Positions 3,011-20,129 of a stretch of 20,129 bases of DNA are shown one piece after another. The translations under genes were made by a program, and so were the position numbers. How positions within the stretch are numbered: position 1 is the first letter of the stretch; each line of letters begins with the position of its first letter. The notes below the pieces were generated by a model that made no database searches, was not told the DNA's origin, and was given only the letters and a program-made list of their open reading frames with translations. The stretch is from a virus, in IMG/VR virus record IMGVR_UViG_3300009104_000153, positions 1 to 20,129 of that record. One strand, given 5' to 3'.

Positions 3011-3517
3011 ATGGCGAAGCGGCCGACGCTGAACAAGACGACCAGCGCCGACGCCGTCCAGCTCTACGGCTTCGACGAGTTCCAACGGGCCCTTCGTCAT
3101 GCCGGCAAGGACACCCGCCGGGCCATCCGGCAGGGCAACAAGGAGATCGCCGACCAGGTCGTGAAGCGGATGCGGCACCGCGCCCGCATCGTCTGGAACG
3201 CCGAACAGTACGAAACGATCGTCCCGTCGATCCGCGCCGTCCAGGGCACCGTCCCGAAGGTGAAGGCCGGCGGCCCCCGTAAGGCGAGGGTGTCGACGCG
3301 GCTCCCATCCGGCCGGCGACGCCGGGAACGGCCCGCAGCCGGCGACGTGTTCTTCGGTGCAGAGTTCGGCGGCCGAAACACCAAAGAGACCATGCAGTTT
3401 CCGCACCCGCGGAAAGGCGGCTACGTCATGTTCCCGACGATCCGGTCGATGCACGGCTACATCAAGAAGGAATACACGCGCCGCATCGAGGACGTGTTGA
3501 AGAAGTTGGGCGACTAA
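3011..3517 (+). CDS. HK97 gp10-like tail completion / minor tail protein
   Basis: This 168-residue very basic protein starts at ATG 3011 behind AGGAGG (2997-3002). Residues 20-55 form a charged helix (LRHAGKDTRRAIRQGNKEIA), and the C-terminal half has the pattern FFGAEFGG, then QFPHPRKGGYVMFPTIR, then a helical tail. This matches a family of actinophage proteins related to HK97 gp10 / tail completion proteins. In actinophages such a gene often sits just ahead of the tape measure, as here. It probably contributes to the tail end or head-tail interface; which one is not clear from sequence. Its stop overlaps the tape measure start by one base (TAATG). Confidence 0.65.
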   Translation: MAKRPTLNKTTSADAVQLYGFDEFQRALRHAGKDTRRAIRQGNKEIADQVVKRMRHRARIVWNAEQYETIVPSIRAVQGTVPKVKAGGPRKARVSTRLPSGRRRRERPAAGDVFFGAEFGGRNTKETMQFPHPRKGGYVMFPTIRSMHGYIKKEYTRRIEDVLKKLGD

Positions 3518-5040
3518 TGGCATCAGCGGTCAGGACGCTCACAGCAAACTTCGTCGGACGAACCGACAACCTCGAGAAGGCGTACAAGCGCGTCTCGAAG
3601 GGGTCCGCGCTCATGTCGGACCGCATCCAGGGGGCGACACGTCGCGCCGGGATGGCTTTCGGCATCATCGGCGGCGCAGCGATCGGCGCAGCTGCAGCGC
3701 TGAAGCCGATGATCGACCAGGCCGCGTCGGTTCAGGAATCCCTGTCGAAGAACACCGTCGTGTTTGGCGAAAGCGCCGCCGCCGTCGAAAAGTTCGCGGA
3801 CACGTCGCTGCAGTCGTTCGGCGTCACGCACCGCGCCGCCCTCGAGGCGACCGGCGTCATCGGCACCCTCGGTAAGGCGATGGGGATGGCCGAAGCCGAT
3901 TCGGCCGAGATGGCGACCACCCTCGTCGGCCTCGCCGGCGACATGTCGTCGTTCAACGACGCCTCGGTCGAGGAGACTTTGACTGCCATCCAGGCCGGTC
4001 TCCGCGGCGAATCCGAGCCGCTGCGCCGCTTCGGCGTTCTCCTCGACGCCGCCACCCTCAAGTCGAAGGCCCTCGCCGAGGGGATCATCACCAACACGAA
4101 GGAGGCGCTGACCCCGCAGCAGAAGGCGCTCGCCGCCTACCAGGTGATCCTCGAGCAGGCCGCCGTCCAGATGGGCGACTTCGAGCGAACGTCGGATTCG
4201 GCGACAAACCAGCAGAAGCTGTTCGCAGGGTCGCTGGACCGGATACGCACCGAGATCGGCGACATGCTGCTGCCAGCGTTCACCGCGGTCGTGGCCTACC
4301 TGAACGAGAACCTGATCCCGGCGCTGTCCGGTTTCGCCGACGATGTCAGAAAAGACGGCCTGTTCGAGGCTGCGTTCAGCAACCTCGGCGAAATGCTCGG
4401 CGACGCGTTGCGCGGCGGCGCGGAAGAATCGCTGGGCAAGTGGAAGGTCGACGAAAAATGGTGGACCACCAACCTCTACTCCTGGGTTCAGGAGAAGATC
4501 CTGAAGGCCACGGCGCTCGTCGCCGAAGGTGCCGGGCTAATCCAGTTCCCGCATCAACCCGGCGGCGGTCCACCGCAGCACACACCGACCGGCGACCCCG
4601 GCACGGGGCCTGTCGGCGTCGGTGCCGGCGGTTCGGCCATCAACCGGCACCCGGCCGCCGCAGCAGCCGCCGCAGCTGCCGGAGCAGCAGCAGCGGCAGC
4701 CGTCGAAGCCGTCACGACGCCCGCTAGGCAACACCCAGCCGCCGCGGCTGCGGCAGCTGCGAACGCGGCAGCCGCCGCCAGTCCAACGCCCGCGCCCGCT
4801 CGGCAGCATCCAGCAGCCGCTGCGGCCCGCGCGGCCCGCGACCCCGAGCTCGACCGGTTCCTCGAGGTCGTCGGCACCCCCGACTGGAACGCGTTTATCG
4901 CGGCGCAGGCACAAGGAGGCCCCCCGAACACCCAGGTCACCGTCAACGTGTCCGGCGTCGTGTCCGGCAACGAGGTGCTGGAAGCCCTCGCCGGCCACGT
5001 CGACCTGAACGGGCCGCTGCCCGCCGAATGGACGCAGTAA
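3517..5040 (+). CDS. Tape measure protein
   Basis: At 507 residues this is among the longest proteins in the genome, located after the chaperone pair. It has an N-terminal helical region, a Gly/Ala-rich hydrophobic stretch at about 45-63 (GIIGGAAIGAAAAL) that could be a membrane-inserting segment, and a conserved-looking helical block (SVQESLSKNTVVFGESA through FADTSLQSFG) typical of siphophage tape measures. By the rule of about 0.15 nm per residue the tail would be roughly 75 nm. The region at about 375-450 is extremely Ala-rich, with three HPAAAA units separated by Pro/Thr linkers, which is odd for this family. The C-terminus has a beta-like segment (QVTVNVSGVVSG). It guides tail length and probably DNA entry. 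Confidence 0.93.
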   Translation: MASAVRTLTANFVGRTDNLEKAYKRVSKGSALMSDRIQGATRRAGMAFGIIGGAAIGAAAALKPMIDQAASVQESLSKNTVVFGESAAAVEKFADTSLQSFGVTHRAALEATGVIGTLGKAMGMAEADSAEMATTLVGLAGDMSSFNDASVEETLTAIQAGLRGESEPLRRFGVLLDAATLKSKALAEGIITNTKEALTPQQKALAAYQVILEQAAVQMGDFERTSDSATNQQKLFAGSLDRIRTEIGDMLLPAFTAVVAYLNENLIPALSGFADDVRKDGLFEAAFSNLGEMLGDALRGGAEESLGKWKVDEKWWTTNLYSWVQEKILKATALVAEGAGLIQFPHQPGGGPPQHTPTGDPGTGPVGVGAGGSAINRHPAAAAAAAAAGAAAAAAVEAVTTPARQHPAAAAAAAANAAAAASPTPAPARQHPAAAAARAARDPELDRFLEVVGTPDWNAFIAAQAQGGPPNTQVTVNVSGVVSGNEVLEALAGHVDLNGPLPAEWTQ

Positions 5041-6577: not shown

Positions 6578-6931
6578 GTGGCCACCTACTCGAAGCAGCT
6601 TCTGTCCGGTTCAACAAACGGCAAGGCCATCAAGGTCGCAGCCACATCGACGGCCGGCACCACCATCCACACCGCCGTGTCCGGCACCACCGACATCGAC
6701 GAGGTGTGGCTGTACGCCGTCAACTCATCGACTTCCGACGTGAAACTCACCATCGAGTGGGGCGAAGCAACCGCACCGGACGGCAACATCGAGCAGACCG
6801 TTACCGCCGAGTCCGGCCTCATGTTGATCGCCCCCGGCCTGCTCCTGCAAAACGGCCTGGTCGTCAAAGCGTTCGCCGCGACCACGAACGTCATCTGCAT
6901 CCACGGCTACGTCAACCGGATCGACGCGTGA
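6578..6931 (+). CDS. Small virion-type beta-rich protein (117 aa)
   Basis: A GTG start at 6578 follows AGGAG. The protein is Thr/Ala/Ser-rich and almost wholly beta-like. It includes ATSTAGTTIHTAVSGT, an EVWLYAVNSS segment and TIEWGEATAPDGN. Similar small proteins occur in tail-fibre regions of marine and freshwater phages as virion structural proteins. Cysteine content is low (one), and no signal peptide or membrane segment is visible. Its stop overlaps the start of the beta-propeller gene (GTGA), so the two are likely translated together and may assemble together. Confidence 0.6.
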   Translation: MATYSKQLLSGSTNGKAIKVAATSTAGTTIHTAVSGTTDIDEVWLYAVNSSTSDVKLTIEWGEATAPDGNIEQTVTAESGLMLIAPGLLLQNGLVVKAFAATTNVICIHGYVNRIDA

Positions 6932-7863
6932 GCCTTCGCTACGGGGCACGCACCCGACCCGCGTCCCTGGTGACGTCCTGGCTCAACAACCTCGACGGCA
7001 CGACGCCGCACGGCCCCGCCGGGTACTTCTGCGGCGGCGGCGCGTACACAACCGTCGACCGGTTCGCGTTCCCATCAGACTCGCGCACCACCCTCAGCAA
7101 CGGATTGCCGGCGAACTCTGACGAGGCGGGCGGCATGGCGAACTCTGGGACCGCCGGCTACGTCGGTGGAGGAAACGAATCGTCAGCCGTCACCACGGTT
7201 CTCAAACTGTTGTTCTCCGACGACTCCATCTCCACGCTAAGCACCGGCCTCTCCGTCGCACGGTGGGGAGTCGCCGGCATGGCGAACTCTGGAACCGCCG
7301 GCTACTTCGGCGGCGGCAACACCTCTGGAACGACGGTCGACAAGTACGACTTCTCCGACGACTCGCGCACCACGCTCGGCACCGGCCTCTCGATTGCGCG
7401 ACGGCAGCTCGCCGGCATGGCGAACTCAGGCACAGCCGGCTACTTCGCAGGCGGCTACGCGCCGAACCGCACCACGGTCGACAAGTACGACTTCTCCGAC
7501 GACTCGCGTTCCACGCTCGGCACCGGCCTGTCGGCGGCGACATCATCCTGCGGCGGCATGGCGAACTCTGGGACCGCCGGCTACGTCTGCGGCGGCTGGA
7601 CCGGCTCCAACGTCGACACGGTCGACAAGTTCGCGTTCTCCGACGACTCACGCACCACCCTGGCGGTCGGGCTGTCGATCGCCCGCAACGGCCCCGGCAC
7701 GATGGCGAACTCCGGCGTCGCCGGCTACGCCGGCGGTGCCAGCGGCACGAACTCATCGGTCGACAAGTTCACCTTCACCCACGACGCCCGTTCCACGCTC
7801 GGCACCGGCCTCTCGTACACGCCGTACAACCCGGCGTCGTTCGCAAACTCGGAAAGCATCTAA
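6928..7863 (+). CDS. Six-blade Kelch-like beta-propeller tail protein (likely receptor-binding)
   Basis: The start is the GTG at 6928 overlapping the previous stop; the frame is open further upstream, but that part overlaps the previous gene. The 311-residue product has a short N-terminal segment and then six repeats of about 46-48 residues. Each has the pattern MANSGTAGYxGGG, then TVDKYDFSDDSRTTLGTGLS. Repeat starts in DNA fall at 7135, 7279, 7417, 7558 and 7702, with a final half motif (FANS) at 7840. The first blade lacks the MANS strand, and the C-terminus supplies it, which would close the ring. The GG plus aromatic pattern is Kelch-like. Such propellers in phage tails commonly bind surface sugars or proteins, so receptor binding is likely but not proven. 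A coiled-coil gene follows with a TAATG overlap. Confidence 0.8.
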   Translation: MSLRYGARTRPASLVTSWLNNLDGTTPHGPAGYFCGGGAYTTVDRFAFPSDSRTTLSNGLPANSDEAGGMANSGTAGYVGGGNESSAVTTVLKLLFSDDSISTLSTGLSVARWGVAGMANSGTAGYFGGGNTSGTTVDKYDFSDDSRTTLGTGLSIARRQLAGMANSGTAGYFAGGYAPNRTTVDKYDFSDDSRSTLGTGLSAATSSCGGMANSGTAGYVCGGWTGSNVDTVDKFAFSDDSRTTLAVGLSIARNGPGTMANSGVAGYAGGASGTNSSVDKFTFTHDARSTLGTGLSYTPYNPASFANSESI

Positions 7864-8390: not shown

Positions 8391-8668
8391 CTTATCTGAC
8401 GTGGCAACTATCCGTCGACGGCGTCAGCGGCACCGGTCCAGAAGCCGCGATCGCGGCCCGCGGCGGCAACGCCGAGGCCAGCTGGGCTGTCGACACAAAC
8501 GGCATCCGCGTCGGTTACCTCACCGTGGCCGCCGACCTCACCGGCCTCGACGCCTGGGATGTCACCGAGGTAACCGAGGCCAAAGCGCTCGCGTTCTGTC
8601 GAAAGTTGTACGCCGACGCGGCGCTCCTCGACGACGGCTACATCAGTGGGCCAACCCCGCCGTCGTGA
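8387..8668 (+). CDS. Small protein, unknown (93 aa)
   Basis: ATG 8387 overlaps the preceding stop (ATGA) and has AGGAGC upstream. The 93-residue product has an N-terminal beta-like half (MTYLTWQLSVDGVSG) and a C-terminal helix (EAKALAFCRKLYADAALL). I do not recognise a family. It lies between the tail-fibre-like genes and the endolysin, and its stop overlaps the endolysin start (GTGA), so it may be a tail or lysis accessory. Confidence 0.5.
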   Translation: MTYLTWQLSVDGVSGTGPEAAIAARGGNAEASWAVDTNGIRVGYLTVAADLTGLDAWDVTEVTEAKALAFCRKLYADAALLDDGYISGPTPPS

Positions 8669-9279
8669 CCTACGCCGGCTACGACGACGACCTCGAATAC
8701 CTCGAGCAGTACCGCGACGACGGCGACGAAAACGTTCGCCTCCTCGAACCGCTCCTCGCGTACCGGCTCGCCTCCGCGTACCGGCGTAGCCGCCGGATGC
8801 GCGACCACGTCACCATCGAGTCGGCGGGCCGCACCCGAGCCGAGCAGCAGTACCTGTACGACGGCTACAAGGCCGGCAAACCTGGTTTCAACCTGGCAGC
8901 CAACCCGGACCGGATCATCGGCCGGCACGGCTCGACGACGTTCGTCGGTTCCTGGCACATGGAGCAGCCCGACGGGCACACCTACGCCGTCGACCTGACG
9001 CACCACGGCCGCGACGACTGGGCGCGTATCCACGAGATCCTCCGGTCGTTCGGCCTGCACACCACCGTCCGCGGCGAACCGTGGCACCACCAGGCCACGA
9101 CGATCCGAGGGCCCCTGCCGGGCCCGTTCCCAGATGACCTGCAACCAGAGGAGGACCAGTTGACCCCTGAGCTGGAAGAAAAGTTGGAGGGCCTCGCAAC
9201 GTGGTTCTTCAACGGCGTGAAGATGATCCTCGACCGCCTCGAGGAAGTCGAAGCAGCCGTCAAGGAGGCAAAGAAGTGA
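8665..9279 (+). CDS. Endolysin, M15-type (VanY-like) zinc peptidase
   Basis: A 204-residue protein starts at GTG 8665, overlapping the previous stop. Residues 50-142 match the D-Ala-D-Ala carboxypeptidase / L-Ala-D-Glu peptidase (M15) fold. GSWHMEQPDGHTYAVDL provides the zinc ligands H98 and D110, and GEPWHH provides E138 and H141. The enzyme would cut peptide stems in host peptidoglycan. There is no signal peptide, in keeping with holin-dependent release. After residue 145 comes a Pro-rich linker and then a highly charged helical tail (about 165-204) in place of a known wall-binding domain. A strong AGAGGAGGA lies just before an in-frame TTG (codon 166), so a separate short C-terminal product is possible. 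The holin gene overlaps its stop. Confidence 0.87.
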   Translation: MTYAGYDDDLEYLEQYRDDGDENVRLLEPLLAYRLASAYRRSRRMRDHVTIESAGRTRAEQQYLYDGYKAGKPGFNLAANPDRIIGRHGSTTFVGSWHMEQPDGHTYAVDLTHHGRDDWARIHEILRSFGLHTTVRGEPWHHQATTIRGPLPGPFPDDLQPEEDQLTPELEEKLEGLATWFFNGVKMILDRLEEVEAAVKEAKK

Positions 9280-9488
9280 GCGAGTACCTGGACTTGATCG
9301 AACGCGTCGTCATGACCGCTGTCCAATGCTTCGCGGCGCTGATGCTCGCCGACGGCACCGGCCTGCTCTACAGCATCGACGCCGTCGAGGCCGCCGCGTG
9401 CGCCGGCATGGCCGCCGGCCTGTCCGTCATCAAGGGCTTCGCCGCGCAGAAGCTCGTCGGCGACAAGTCCGCTTCGCTCGTGAAGTGA
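9276..9488 (+). CDS. Holin (r1t-like, two membrane segments)
   Basis: A GTG start at 9276 is preceded by AAGGAGG at about eight bases, the strongest site in the lysis block. The 70-residue product has two hydrophobic segments, roughly 10-27 (VVMTAVQCFAALML) and 36-56 (AVEAAACAGMAAGLSVI), separated by a short turn, with a basic C-terminal tail (AQKLVGDKSASLVK). This layout matches the r1t holin family of Gram-positive phages. It would form membrane lesions that release the endolysin encoded just upstream. The start overlaps the endolysin stop. Confidence 0.82.
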   Translation: MSEYLDLIERVVMTAVQCFAALMLADGTGLLYSIDAVEAAACAGMAAGLSVIKGFAAQKLVGDKSASLVK

Positions 9489-10327
9489 CCAAAGACGACA
9501 CCGACGAAACACCGACCAGCTGGAAACAGCTGAGGGTCAAAACGAACCTTGGGGTGCTGGCCTCGGCCGCCCTGGTGCTCGGCACCGTCCTGTGGCAGGG
9601 CTTCCAGATCAACGCCGCCGTCGAATCGAACTCCGACTCGGTCGCGGACCTGACCCTCGTCGTCGACGAACTCGCCGGCGCGGTATCGCTCGCCAACGAG
9701 CTCGACACGCGCACGGAGATCCTGTTCGGCGAAATAGATTCGCTGCGCGGCCAGTACCAGGAGCAGGCCGACCTGTGGATCGAAATATCGACGAACACGG
9801 AACGCGCCGAGCAGCTCCGCGCCGACCTCGACTCGACGCAGTGGCAGGTCGACGACATCCTGGTGCGCGCCGGCGAGTTCTACGCGATCAACGACACCGT
9901 GAACGACCTGCAGTGGAAGGTCGACGACCTGGAACGCCGCGTCGCCGAAGCGTTCGGCATGGAAATGGCCGACGACGGCGGTGCCGACCTCGACTGGCAG
10001 GTGTCGGATCTGATCCGGCAGGTCGCCGAGCTCCAGGGCCGCGTCAACGCGTCCGGCGACCTCGAGTGGAAGATCACCGACCTCGAGAACGGCCTCGACT
10101 GGGAGATCGACGAGCTGACCCGCCAGGTCACCGAACTACGCGTCCGGTTAGACACCGGGCACGGCGTCGAACAATGGCAGATCGACGACCTGTGGAACCA
10201 CTCCCACGATGTCTACGGCCGCACCGACGACCTGTACGGCCGCACCGACGACCTGTACGACCTCGTCTGGCGCATCTGGTACGCCGTCGAGTCACAGCAG
10301 TGGTCGCATCCGTACCTGTTCGACTAG
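9485..10327 (+). CDS. Membrane-anchored coiled-coil protein with Trp-centred repeats
   Basis: This 280-residue protein starts at GTG 9485, overlapping the holin stop. Residues 1-20 are charged, 22-42 are a single hydrophobic anchor (LGVLASAALVLGTVLWQGF), and the rest is a long acidic helical region. A motif W-[QKE]-[VI]-[DST]-[DE]-[LI] occurs six times, with Trp at residues 120, 144, 171, 195, 206 and 231, mostly 24-27 apart. The end has a perfect heptad duplication (YGRTDDL twice, 244-257) and then an aromatic C-terminus. The topology is probably cytoplasmic N-terminus with the body outside. Location directly after the holin suggests a lysis role, for example a spanin-like rod or regulator. 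I do not recognise a family, and the role is inference. Confidence 0.75.
   Translation: MTKDDTDETPTSWKQLRVKTNLGVLASAALVLGTVLWQGFQINAAVESNSDSVADLTLVVDELAGAVSLANELDTRTEILFGEIDSLRGQYQEQADLWIEISTNTERAEQLRADLDSTQWQVDDILVRAGEFYAINDTVNDLQWKVDDLERRVAEAFGMEMADDGGADLDWQVSDLIRQVAELQGRVNASGDLEWKITDLENGLDWEIDELTRQVTELRVRLDTGHGVEQWQIDDLWNHSHDVYGRTDDLYGRTDDLYDLVWRIWYAVESQQWSHPYLFD
10214..10255 (+). repeat. Perfect 21-bp tandem duplication inside the coiled-coil gene
   Basis: Bases 10214-10234 and 10235-10255 are identical, 21 bases each, and encode YGRTDDL twice. The unit is exactly seven codons, one coiled-coil heptad. Exact identity, including third positions, points to a recent duplication by slippage or to a site where length variation may occur. 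Confidence 0.9.
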
Positions 10328-10337
10328 GCGGTGACCC

Positions 10338-10523
10338 GTGTCAAAGATGACGAAGCTGATCGCGTCGATCACCGGCCTCCTCGTCGCCCTGGGCACCCTT
10401 GTCGGCACCGTGTCGATGACGATCGGCAAAGGACCGGAGCCGGCCCCCGCAGGCATCACAATCGTGCTGAATAGCGCCGAGGCGTTCGAGGACTTCCTCG
10501 AGAACCACCCGTCGAACGGCTGA
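10338..10523 (+). CDS. Small membrane protein in the lysis block (61 aa)
   Basis: A GTG start at 10338, with AGGCGGTGA upstream, encodes 61 residues. One hydrophobic segment spans about residues 7-30 (LIASITGLLVALGTLVGTV), preceded by two lysines and followed by an acidic tail (AEAFEDFLEN). This is the last gene before a strong terminator. It could be a second holin, an antiholin or a pinholin partner of the two-segment holin at 9276. An in-frame ATG three codons later (10347) is a possible alternative start. There is no recognised family; the assignment rests on the membrane segment and position. Confidence 0.6.
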   Translation: MSKMTKLIASITGLLVALGTLVGTVSMTIGKGPEPAPAGITIVLNSAEAFEDFLENHPSNG

Positions 10524-11610: not shown

Positions 11611-11885
11611 CCGAAGCCCAATGGCAGCAAACCGTGATCGACGCCGCCGAAGTGTTCGGCTGGTGGACCTACCACACCCACGACTCCCGCCGATCAACAC
11701 CCGGTTTTCCCGACCTGGTCTTGATCCGGCCGCCACGGGTCATCTTTCTCGAGCTGAAACGCGAAACGGGCCGCCTCACCCCGGCCCAACGCGAAGTCCT
11801 CGGCCTCCTGGCCGGCTGCCCCGGCGTCGAATCACACGTCGCGCGGCCGTCCGAATGGCCACAAGTTGTGGAGTGGCTGTCATGA
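11562..11885 (+). CDS. VRR-Nuc type nuclease
   Basis: ATG 11562 has an excellent AAGGAGG (11549-11555) at six bases, so the 49-base overlap with the preceding gene looks real. The 107-residue protein matches the VRR-Nuc branch of the PD-(D/E)xK nucleases: a helix with EAQWQQTVIDAAE, then TPGFPDLVLIRPP (D51), then VIFLELKRETGRLTPAQ (E64, K66 and Q76). Small stand-alone VRR-Nuc proteins are common in phages and may cut branched DNA such as Holliday junctions or replication intermediates. With the annealing-like and Rep-like genes nearby, a role in DNA processing before packaging is plausible. Confidence 0.87.
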   Translation: MPGVPTHSIDAVSGVVTEAQWQQTVIDAAEVFGWWTYHTHDSRRSTPGFPDLVLIRPPRVIFLELKRETGRLTPAQREVLGLLAGCPGVESHVARPSEWPQVVEWLS

Positions 11886-12460
11886 CCCTGCTGTCATGCG
11901 CAACCGAGACCCAGGAGTTGCCGCTTACCGGGTCGCCACTCACAGCGGAACAGGTGCCGGCCGGCACGACGCCCCCGACGACGGTCTCATCCATGCCGCC
12001 GTCGGCCCTTCCACGATCGTCCCGGCCGGCCCCTGTTCCATCCACGACGGTGACCGCCGACGCCGCGCCCGTCCAGGTAAGCGTCACGCCGGCCACCACC
12101 ACCACCTCGACGACCTCGACGACGGTGCCGGCCGTCTGGGCCGCAGCCGTCGAGGGCTGGAGGCCGTATGTCGCCGTCTGGTTCCGACCGGAACACGTCG
12201 ACCTGGTCCTCGACCTCATTGCCTGCGAATCATCCGGCGACCCGGACGCGTACAACGACACCGAAGCGGCGAACGGTATGAACGCCGCCGGCCTGCTCCA
12301 GCACCTTGACGGCTACTGGCCGACCCGGGCGATCAGGGCGAACGCCGCCGGCTACGGCAACGGCGGCGACATCTTCAACCCGCTCGACCAGCTCGCCGTG
12401 TCCGCGTGGCTCGCCTACCAGACGCCGCAGGGCTTCGACCATTGGGAGTGTCACCGATGA
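11882..12460 (+). CDS. Exported transglycosylase-like (lysozyme-fold) protein
   Basis: The 192-residue product starts at ATG 11882 (ATGA overlap). A second in-frame ATG at 11855 would add nine residues and lengthen the hydrophobic lead before a lipobox-like LLSC; it lacks a ribosome binding site. Residues 20-85 are a Pro/Thr/Ser-rich linker ending TTTTSTTSTTVPAV. Residues 95-192 form a lysozyme-like domain: LIACESSGDPDAYN (catalytic E116), AAGLLQHLDGYWPTRA, GDIFNPLDQLAVSAWLAY and a final WECHR; C115 and C190 may bond. This resembles the peptidoglycan-active domains of resuscitation-promoting or SLT-like proteins in Acidimicrobiia. It is far from the lysis block, so a role in wall remodelling or host interaction is possible. 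The function as a muralytic enzyme is inferred from motifs. Confidence 0.78.
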   Translation: MTLLSCATETQELPLTGSPLTAEQVPAGTTPPTTVSSMPPSALPRSSRPAPVPSTTVTADAAPVQVSVTPATTTTSTTSTTVPAVWAAAVEGWRPYVAVWFRPEHVDLVLDLIACESSGDPDAYNDTEAANGMNAAGLLQHLDGYWPTRAIRANAAGYGNGGDIFNPLDQLAVSAWLAYQTPQGFDHWECHR

Positions 12461-14355: not shown

Positions 14356-14752
14356 CGACCTGCGCCGGCTCATGACCCGGCTCGCCGCATCAGCGCACCT
14401 GGTATCGGTCGAGCTCGACGACCTCCTGGTGCTGGCCTACGAGAACACCGGAGCCGGCGACCGCGTCCAGGTATCCGGCGGCGACATCGTCGACCTGCAC
14501 GCCGTCGGCGACCAACGGGCCCGCAACGCCCTCGACGGCATCAACCGGCACGCCGCGCCGCTGCTGCAGCACCTAGACAACGCGATCCGGTTGCTGCACG
14601 CGACCGGCCCGCAGGACCCGGCACCCCGCACCCGCCAGAAGGTCTCCAAGACGGAGCACCAGGAAGCCCTCGACGCGCAGGAACGCCGCCGAGCCCGCGG
14701 CGAATACACGCCGATCCGCGTCGTCCCGCAACCGAAACCCCGCATCCGCTGA
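14342..14752 (+). CDS. Helical protein, unknown (136 aa)
   Basis: ATG 14342 overlaps the previous gene by 14 bases; an in-frame ATG at 14372 is a possible alternative. The N-terminal half is helical (LRRLMTRLAASAHLVSVELDDLL), then comes GAGDRVQVSGGDIVDLHAVGDQRA, more helix (HAAPLLQHLDNAIRLLHA) and a basic, Pro-rich C-terminus (RVVPQPKPRIR). The helix plus DRVQVSGG pattern resembles uncharacterised actinophage proteins often found near WhiB-like or replication genes. There are no catalytic motifs. The stop overlaps the WhiB start (TGATG), so the two are probably co-translated and might work together. Confidence 0.6.
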   Translation: MSSDDDLRRLMTRLAASAHLVSVELDDLLVLAYENTGAGDRVQVSGGDIVDLHAVGDQRARNALDGINRHAAPLLQHLDNAIRLLHATGPQDPAPRTRQKVSKTEHQEALDAQERRRARGEYTPIRVVPQPKPRIR

Positions 14753-15231
14753 TGGACACCTACCACGAGTGCCGCCAATGCTCGGCACCTGACGGTTACA
14801 CCTGGTACGCCGACGACGGCTACGAGCTGTGCAAATACTGCGGCCACAAACGCATCCACGAGAACGCCTGGTTCAAGCGGGCCGCCTGCAAGGGCATGGA
14901 CCCCGACCTGTTCTTCCCTGAACGCGGCGAGCTCGACGCCGTCCGAGCAGCGAAGCAGGTGTGCGCCGCCTGCCCCGTCGCAGACGAGTGCCTGACCTAC
15001 GCCCTGGTCACCGTGCAGCGGTGGGGCATCTGGGGCGGCATGTCCGAAAAGCAGCGTCGCCGCGTCCGCAACCGCGTCGGCGAGATGGACGGCAACTGCT
15101 ACGTCCGACGCTGCCTGCATTGCCGCTCAGCGTTCAAGACGACGGTCCGCATCAAGAACTTCTGCTCGAGGTCGTGCTACTCCGCTCGTTACGGCGGCCG
15201 GCACCCGGCCCGCTGGAAGCGGCCGGCCTGA
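14752..15231 (+). CDS. WhiB-like transcription factor with flanking zinc-finger-like cysteine clusters
   Basis: The 159-residue protein contains a full WhiB core at about 40-110: C46, C71, C74 and C80 (the CxxCxxxxxC set for a 4Fe-4S cluster), the G-I-W-G-G turn at 92-96 and a basic end (KQRRRVRNR). Unusually, an N-terminal region has two CxxC pairs (C7/C10 and C27/C30), a zinc-ribbon-like layout. A C-terminal region has C121/C124 and C138/C142 in a finger-like arrangement. Phage WhiB proteins are usually about 70-120 aa, so this is extended at both ends. WhiB proteins bind sigma factor region 4 and shift host transcription, so this one may redirect host RNA polymerase. Two added metal sites are inferred from cysteine spacing. 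It is the last gene of the second operon. Confidence 0.88.
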   Translation: MDTYHECRQCSAPDGYTWYADDGYELCKYCGHKRIHENAWFKRAACKGMDPDLFFPERGELDAVRAAKQVCAACPVADECLTYALVTVQRWGIWGGMSEKQRRRVRNRVGEMDGNCYVRRCLHCRSAFKTTVRIKNFCSRSCYSARYGGRHPARWKRPA

Positions 15232-19377: not shown

Positions 19378-20129
19378 ATGAAGCTGCTCGACCAGCTCGT
19401 CGAGGAGCGCGCAGAGATCGCCGACGCCATGTCGGCCGTCTGCGACGCCGCCGCCGACGAGACCCGCGACCTCTCCGACACGGAGGAGTCGAACCTGAAG
19501 GACCTGCACGCCCGGTCCGAGTCCCTGGACGCCCGCATCTCCGAGCTGCGCGACATCCAGCTGCGTAACGCCGAAGCCGCGAAGCTGCGCGCCGAGGTCA
19601 CCACGACCCCCGAGACCGCCGAGAAGGCCGTCGAGGTGCGCGTGTCGGCCGAGCCGCTCACCTACGGCGAGCACACCGACGCGTCGTTCTTCCGCGACGT
19701 GTTCGCGTCCCAGCACCGCCACGACCCGGCTGCCCAGGCCCGCATCGCCCGCCACACCGCGGAGATGGAGCTCGAGCACCGCGACGCCGGCACCGGAGCG
19801 TTCGCCGGCCTCGTCGTCCCGCAGTACCTGACCGCGATGGCCGCCGAGCTGGCCCGCGCCGGCCGGCCCACCGCGAACGTCTGCAACCGGCTGCCCCTGC
19901 CGGCCGACGGCATGACCATCAACGTGTCGCGCGTGACGACCGGTTCGACGACCGCCATCCAGGCGTCGGAGAACAGCGCCGTGTCCGAGACCGACATGGA
20001 CGACACGCTGCTGACCGTCAACGTCCGCACCGTCGCCGGCCAGCAGGACGTGTCCAGGCAGGCCCTCGAGCGTGGCACCGGCATCGACGCCCTCATCATG
20101 GGCGACCTGGCCGCCAGCTACGCCGCGAC
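19378..20129 (+). CDS. HK97-fold major capsid protein, N-terminal part (continues at 1-714)
   Basis: ATG 19378, with AAGGAG at eight bases, begins a frame that runs to the end of the window and, through the 119-base overlap, on to the stop at 712-714. The N-terminal 75 residues or so form a helical delta domain (LLDQLVEERAEIADAM, then LSDTEESNLKDLHARSESL), as in HK97 gp5, which acts as an internal scaffold and is removed by the protease. The N-arm and E-loop region follow (TGAFAGLVVPQYLTAMAAEL). The upstream protease gene fits this maturation. The 448-residue total is close to the family norm. Confidence 0.96.
   Translation, partial: MKLLDQLVEERAEIADAMSAVCDAAADETRDLSDTEESNLKDLHARSESLDARISELRDIQLRNAEAAKLRAEVTTTPETAEKAVEVRVSAEPLTYGEHTDASFFRDVFASQHRHDPAAQARIARHTAEMELEHRDAGTGAFAGLVVPQYLTAMAAELARAGRPTANVCNRLPLPADGMTINVSRVTTGSTTAIQASENSAVSETDMDDTLLTVNVRTVAGQQDVSRQALERGTGIDALIMGDLAASYAA
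20011..20129. repeat. Terminal direct repeat, right copy (circular contig join)
   Basis: This is identical to bases 1-119, as described for the left copy. Only one copy should be counted in the 20,010-bp circle. Confidence 0.95.

Follow-up and report, generated by a model that had tools for sequence, protein, structure and literature searches.

The study of what lysis requires beyond a holin and an endolysin in phages of Gram-positive and actinobacterial hosts has just begun (LysZ and LysF1b, 2025-2026). LysZ was reported for the Corynebacterium phages CL31 and Cog (McKitterick, Lyerly and Bernhardt, ref. 59 in PMC13056207). As summarised in PMC13056207, it is a 177-aa single-pass protein of N-in/C-out topology that acts on lipid-anchored glycans, and its deletion gives small plaques, hence its designation as auxiliary. 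In mycobacteriophage Girr, a lysin and a 2-TM holin are followed, with a 4-nt overlap, by a 1-TM helical protein, and deletion of the 1-TM gene results in small plaques (PMC13056207). Corynebacterium phage CL31 has the same layout, and its 1-TM helical protein, clg_49, is presumed by gene position only to be LysZ. LysF1b is required for efficient lysis, though it is non-essential (PMC13056207).

We analyzed IMG/VR record IMGVR_UViG_3300009104_000153 from position 1 to 20129 (20,129 nt, the whole stretch of DNA studied, hereafter the window). The window carries a direct terminal repeat of 119 bp in two identical copies (1-119 and 20011-20129), so it is probably a complete genome, circular or terminally redundant, of about 20,010 bp. 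Among its products are TerL, a portal protein, a prohead protease, a capsid protein, a tape measure protein, an N6/N4 methylase, an HNH nuclease, and a WhiB-family regulator (14752-15231, PF02467, E=2e-24). WhiB is also found in two contigs that encode relatives of the protein described below, clearly in L055 (E=2e-18) and weakly in L071. To our knowledge, WhiB proteins are restricted to Actinobacteria and their phages. The nearest kin of the window TerL are the TerL of Pontimonas and Streptomyces phages. The presence of WhiB and the kinship of the terminase make an actinobacterium, probably a marine one, the likely host. In agreement with the original prediction, such a host would usually be monoderm, and it could also have a mycolate outer membrane. 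We also scanned 84,980 prokaryote genomes with the profile of the rod protein (see below) and, separately, with its 61-aa neighbour. Neither scan retrieved a relative, so the host could not be read from a prophage.

Two products of this genome have unusual repeats. The tape measure protein (3517-5040) has an Ala-rich C-terminal half with repeated RQHPAAAAA units. The other is a probable tail or fibre protein in which a unit of about 50 residues (MANSGTAGYxGGG...SDDSRTTLGTGLS) is repeated in tandem, at about 7000-7863.

The lysis block and the features of the rod protein

The genes of the lysis block lie on the forward strand. The endolysin (8665..9279) carries the motif S-W-H-M-x-Q...A-V-D...E-P-W-H-H, and the residues S, R, Q, H99, D111, E139, W141, and H142 are invariant in 11 cassettes. 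Its sole database match is PHROG 2649 endolysin (E=0.0025) and its profile has no match in the PDB, so it is called M15-peptidase-like by motif conservation alone. Next comes a 70-aa holin of the r1t type (9276..9488), which matches PF16945 above the gathering score (E=1.7e-10) and PHROG 443 holin (E=1.8e-10). The following gene (9485..10327) encodes a 280-aa protein that spans the membrane once and carries six Trp modules on a coiled-coil rod, hereafter the rod protein. It starts with the GTG at 9485, in a 4-nt overlap (GTGA) with the holin stop codon, and its own stop codon ends at 10327. Downstream lies a 61-aa single-pass membrane protein (10338..10523) that ends in VLNSxEAYxxFxxNHPSxG. 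This small protein belongs to no database family, is the steadiest neighbour of the rod gene, and is widely conserved, being kept even in cassettes that lack the rod gene. The position of the rod gene after a holin and before a small membrane protein is therefore as originally described.

About 1.5 kb downstream of the rod region, the product of the gene at 11855-12460 may be a lipoprotein. Its LLSC box is non-consensus, and a Thr/Pro-rich linker leads to a C-terminal domain in which the motifs ESxGDPxAxN and GLLQHL are transglycosylase-like. Pfam gives no match for this product, similar proteins are encoded in contigs L018 and L025, and it is a possible second wall enzyme.

The rod protein has a single hydrophobic segment. 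Charge bias and conserved columns delimit a putatively cytoplasmic N-terminal segment (aa 1-21, 9485..9547), with a conserved T-x-W-K-Q...N-L-G immediately ahead of the transmembrane helix (aa 22-40, 9548..9604). The Kyte-Doolittle hydropathy of this helix is 1.72 in the window and ranges from 1.65 to 2.28 in relatives. Three K/R residues precede the helix and none follows it, and K/R are commoner before than after the helix in 18/18 family members (2-4 before, 0-2 after). This inside-positive bias points to an N-in/C-out topology, as predicted by charge count. The remainder, about 235 residues, is acidic (17 K/R vs 54 D/E, pI about 4.05). It begins with a juxtamembrane ectodomain (aa 41-114, 9605..9826), a run of invariant or near-invariant columns that is the best-conserved portion of the long forms of the family in our alignments.

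The motif W-x-[VI]-[DST]-[DE]-[LI] then occurs six times, as WQVDDI (aa 120, 9842..9859), WKVDDL (aa 144, 9914..9931), WQVSDL (aa 171, 9995..10012), WKITDL (aa 195, 10067..10084), WEIDEL (aa 206, 10100..10117), and WQIDDL (aa 231, 10175..10192). Module 1 gives way to different sequence in L011 and L012, and the Trp of modules 2 and 3 are invariant in the long-form alignment. When the protein was shuffled 20,000 times with its composition preserved, three motifs were obtained in 3 shuffles and more than three in none, which confirms the six Trp-centred motifs of the original prediction. Their wording as W-x-x-D-D-L is literally true at aa 144 and 231 only. Likewise, the proposed spacing of mostly 24-27 residues holds for four of the steps and fails for the one between modules 4 and 5 (24, 27, 24, 11, and 25 in order). 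After the modules, the heptad YGRTDDL is present in two tandem copies (aa 244-257, 10214..10255), one of which is missing from each of L008 and L017 in the alignment. The protein ends in a conserved tip (aa 262-280, 10268..10324), whose W273 is invariant in 17/17 aligned members, including those that have no Trp module.

The hydrophobic residues of the rod protein recur with a period of 3.45-3.5 residues, which 0/200 shuffles reach in each of seven relatives. The coiled-coil periodicity is real, and the description of this protein as an N-terminal membrane anchor followed by about 235 acidic coiled-coil residues is confirmed by hydropathy, charge, and periodicity. When the family's 53 distinct motif contexts are compared, the positions -2, +2, +5, +9, and +12 from the Trp are hydrophobic. 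With the heptad core at these positions, the motif Trp is assigned to position f and would face the solvent. Two AlphaFold2 runs gave a helix throughout nearly the whole protein at low confidence (pLDDT 58 and 56), as may be expected in the modelling of a lone coiled-coil chain. At 0.15 nm per residue, some 230 residues in one straight helix would span roughly 35 nm, which is an upper bound because there are breaks at Gly-rich points.

The rod family in uncultured viruses

Apart from generic coiled coils, searches for the rod protein in Pfam, PHROGs, NCBIfam, the PDB sequences, and a set of 50,697 phage records gave no match. Relatives were found in IMG/VR, where about 25 contigs from uncultured viruses, several of them near-duplicates, carry the family. 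As judged by these sequence comparisons, none of the resources searched describes the family. The Trp repeat does occur in other phage lysis cassettes, on uncultured viral contigs and not among the sequenced phages. Contig L054 encodes a 75-aa single-pass protein with W-like motifs; we rejected it as a family member since its profile shows no relationship.

The long forms (about 210-293 aa) all have the anchor and the strongly conserved stretch past the membrane helix. The short forms (146-164 aa in L055, L071, L074, L077, and L078) keep the anchor and the terminal tip, and the anchor of the L055 protein is shared with the family (hhalign E=1.6e-5). Among 17 aligned members, eight columns are invariant: six (Q, L, G, S, W, and V) in the anchor or where the ectodomain begins, an R in one of the rod modules, and the tip Trp, W273 in the window. 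Between these ends lie rods of about 100-245 residues, which carry anything between zero and six Trp modules. The window has six motifs, L008 has five, L038, L045, and L056 have three, L074 has one similar motif, and L055 has none. Judging from the alignments, the length of the rod differs between relatives by whole modules, and an elastic middle between fixed ends would be expected if the rod serves to reach.

The gene order endolysin, holin, rod, and 61-aa protein is found in the window, L005-L008, L011-L013, L017, L022, L023, and L056. In the latter the rod has 31% identity, yet the order is the same, and both the window group and L056 retain the 4 nt shared by the holin and rod genes. Other orders were observed. 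The r1t holin is followed by the 61-aa protein and the rod in L045 and L046, upstream of a scaffold-like gene and with the endolysin 5-6 kb away; an r1t-like holin precedes a short rod in L071; a short rod is followed by the 61-aa protein and the endolysin in L055; and L032 has the rod, a multi-TM protein, and an endolysin with a peptidoglycan-binding domain. A holin or an endolysin thus adjoins the rod gene in most of the orders found. A role in lysis, as first proposed, is supported by the variety of gene orders in which one or both of these genes stand beside the rod.

In L037-L044 and L074-L078, the rod gene lies between terS and terL, and no endolysin could be recognised on the fetched stretch of DNA. 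These contigs do have relatives away from recognisable lysis genes, which the original prediction had counted against a lysis component; the majority of the gene orders do not. The interval between the terminase genes also contains a ferredoxin and the 61-aa protein in the L037-L044 group, both of which are lacking in L074 and L078. In L037-L044, the ferredoxin gene (Fer4_15, E=2e-16; 1852-2091 in L038) has the rod gene on one side and that of the 61-aa protein on the other. The holin and Rz genes of T7 are located around its terminase genes, so the placement between terS and terL would be compatible with a role in lysis, by analogy and not as proof of one.

These locations also bear on whether the protein is a component of the virion, of DNA ejection, or of assembly, with the coiled coil in a structural role. 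Besides the placement between the terminase genes, the short forms of L055 and L057 come after tail genes, and the rod gene of L045 lies between a large late gene and the scaffold-like gene. Yet few virion proteins have an N-terminal membrane anchor of inside-positive bias, the only structural profiles matched were generic coiled coils, and the steadiest neighbours of the rod are the holin and the 61-aa membrane protein. We regard a virion function as very improbable.

The recurrent proximity of the holin, which is the nearest lysis gene in several of the orders, raises another alternative. The rod could be a second holin, an antiholin, or a part of the lesion, in which oligomerisation driven by the coiled coil would set the firing time of the r1t holin, as in LysF1b or T4 T. 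The two genes are translationally coupled, and that of LysF1b likewise overlaps its upstream 2-TM gene by 4 nt (PMC13056207). However, LysF1b and the Gordonia 1-TM proteins are N-out/C-in proteins of 79-145 aa with their bulk in the cytoplasm, and the Gordonia set has no coiled coil (PMC13056207, PMC9671378), whereas the rod proteins have the opposite charge bias and 146-293 aa. Furthermore, L032 pairs its rod with a different multi-TM protein, which indicates that the rod is not tied to one holin, and a pure timer would have no need of a variable-length rod with a conserved far tip. We hold a partner of the holin to be an unlikely reading.

The pairwise dN/dS of the rod gene is 0.06-0.36 over nine pairs, similar to that of the endolysin and of the 61-aa protein. 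By this measure, the rod gene is under purifying selection. It is nevertheless missing from the otherwise intact sister cassettes of L009, L015, L016, L018-L020, L021, and L025. In L021 (the same contig as L052), a deletion scar at 6839-6893 fuses in frame the first ten and the last seven codons of the gene, leaving a 17-codon remnant in which MTDEPETTSW is joined to SHDYLYN at a shared TGGA. The absences require four changes on the endolysin tree, a count to be read with the weak support of the tree and the possible recombination of cassettes in mind. The conjunction of purifying selection with absence from sister cassettes shows that the rod gene is maintained yet dispensable, i.e., useful where present but not essential.

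Genes for exclusion are often dispensable and patchy as well. The rod could be a surface protein made late to prevent superinfection of the infected cell, or a premature attack on it, and would neighbour lysis genes by virtue of shared late expression. Surfaces can be masked by anchored N-in/C-out rods, and in two groups of contigs the endolysin is not adjacent to the rod gene. Still, exclusion genes are usually early or lysogenic, whereas, in the window group and L056, the rod gene shares nucleotides with the stop codon of the holin, and in most gene orders it has a holin or an endolysin beside it. We find this explanation improbable.

A putative auxiliary lysis protein

The predicted N-in/C-out topology, the overlap with the holin, and the context of the lysis block suggest an auxiliary lysis protein acting in the wall zone. 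Our preferred reading, in which we have moderate confidence, is that the rod is a putative spanin- or LysZ-like auxiliary protein of actinobacterial phages. Its action in lysis, the binding by its Trp residues, and the identity of its partner are what we infer. The rod would be co-translated with the holin, its N-terminus would stay in the cytoplasm, and the single helix would anchor it in the cytoplasmic membrane. The coiled coil, with conserved ends and variable length, would project outward across the wall zone. Once the holin fires and the endolysin cuts the peptidoglycan, the exposed Trp residues and the C-terminal tip may engage a partner in the wall zone, for which membrane-anchored glycopolymers and the neighbouring 61-aa protein are candidates. 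The engaged rod would then help to destabilise what still keeps the cell together. We conjecture that the ligands of the exposed Trp residues are glycans of the wall or glycans anchored to lipid.

Against a role in lysis stand the lack of homology between the rod and any characterised lysis protein, the intact sister cassettes that do without it, and its placement between terS and terL with no recognised endolysin. One may go further and imagine a spanin-like machine for cells devoid of a classic outer membrane: a membrane-anchored ruler with a Trp grip on wall or lipid-anchored glycopolymers and a tip at the far side, whose length is tuned to wall thickness by gain and loss of Trp modules of 24-27 residues. 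We hold this elaboration to be doubtful. The design itself is clear, with a fixed anchor, a fixed tip, and an adjustable rod, and the natural length variants and deletions make its role testable.

Comparison with known lysis proteins

The i-spanin Rz of lambda (PMC6139136) resembles the rod in being an N-in/C-out single-pass protein of the lysis cassette with a long extracytoplasmic coiled coil and a permissive linker. It differs in having a lipoprotein partner, the o-spanin, which was found neither beside nor inside the rod gene, and the host of the rod is apparently actinobacterial. No ORF with a signal sequence and a consensus lipobox was found between 8400 and 10800 of the window on either strand, and the possible lipoprotein at 11855 is, unlike an o-spanin, fused to a transglycosylase-like domain. 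Among other coiled-coil matches, PHROG 739 (Rz-like) matches the rod weakly (E=0.05). We rejected a two-component spanin of the Rz/Rz1 type, since the helix and topology are predicted to be of the i-spanin type but no lipoprotein partner was found, and a unimolecular spanin like T1 gp11, since the sole membrane helix is N-terminal and the protein contains zero Cys.

The type III holin T of T4 also has one N-terminal membrane helix, an N-in/C-out topology, and its bulk outside the membrane (PMC13056207). In contrast to the rod, its ectodomain is globular and it is itself the holin. The rod was rejected as a holin of this type, as the gene immediately upstream encodes a separate r1t holin. LysF1b of mycobacteriophages Girr and NormanBulbieJr is, like the rod, a 1-TM helical protein whose gene immediately follows, and overlaps by 4 nt, one for a 2-TM holin-like product, but it has 124 aa, an N-out/C-in topology, a helix followed by basic residues, and a cytoplasmic domain that is charged, with no Trp modules described (PMC13056207). 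The Gordonia 1-TM proteins likewise occupy this slot. The K/R bias is reversed in 18 members of the rod family, and we excluded its assignment to the LysF1b/Gordonia 1-TM holin-like proteins.

The rod shares with LysZ its place as a 1-TM protein after the holin in the lysis cassette of an actinobacterial phage and its predicted N-in/C-out topology. The presumed LysZ, CL31 clg_49, has 171 aa, carries many basic residues past its helix, and lacks Trp modules, in contrast to the rod, and the two show no similarity (BLASTP E=20, hhalign probability 0.1), so that the rod was not classed with LysZ by sequence. The original prediction held that a spanin-like rod would be unexpected in a monoderm host, and this surprise is now reduced by what PMC13056207 relates of LysZ in Corynebacterium phages. 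An auxiliary 1-TM lysis protein of actinobacterial phages is a known kind, and what is new is the family. It adds a solution unrelated to LysZ and LysF1b in the same gene slot, and lets annotators recognise a family on about 25 contigs of uncultured viruses where databases are now blank.
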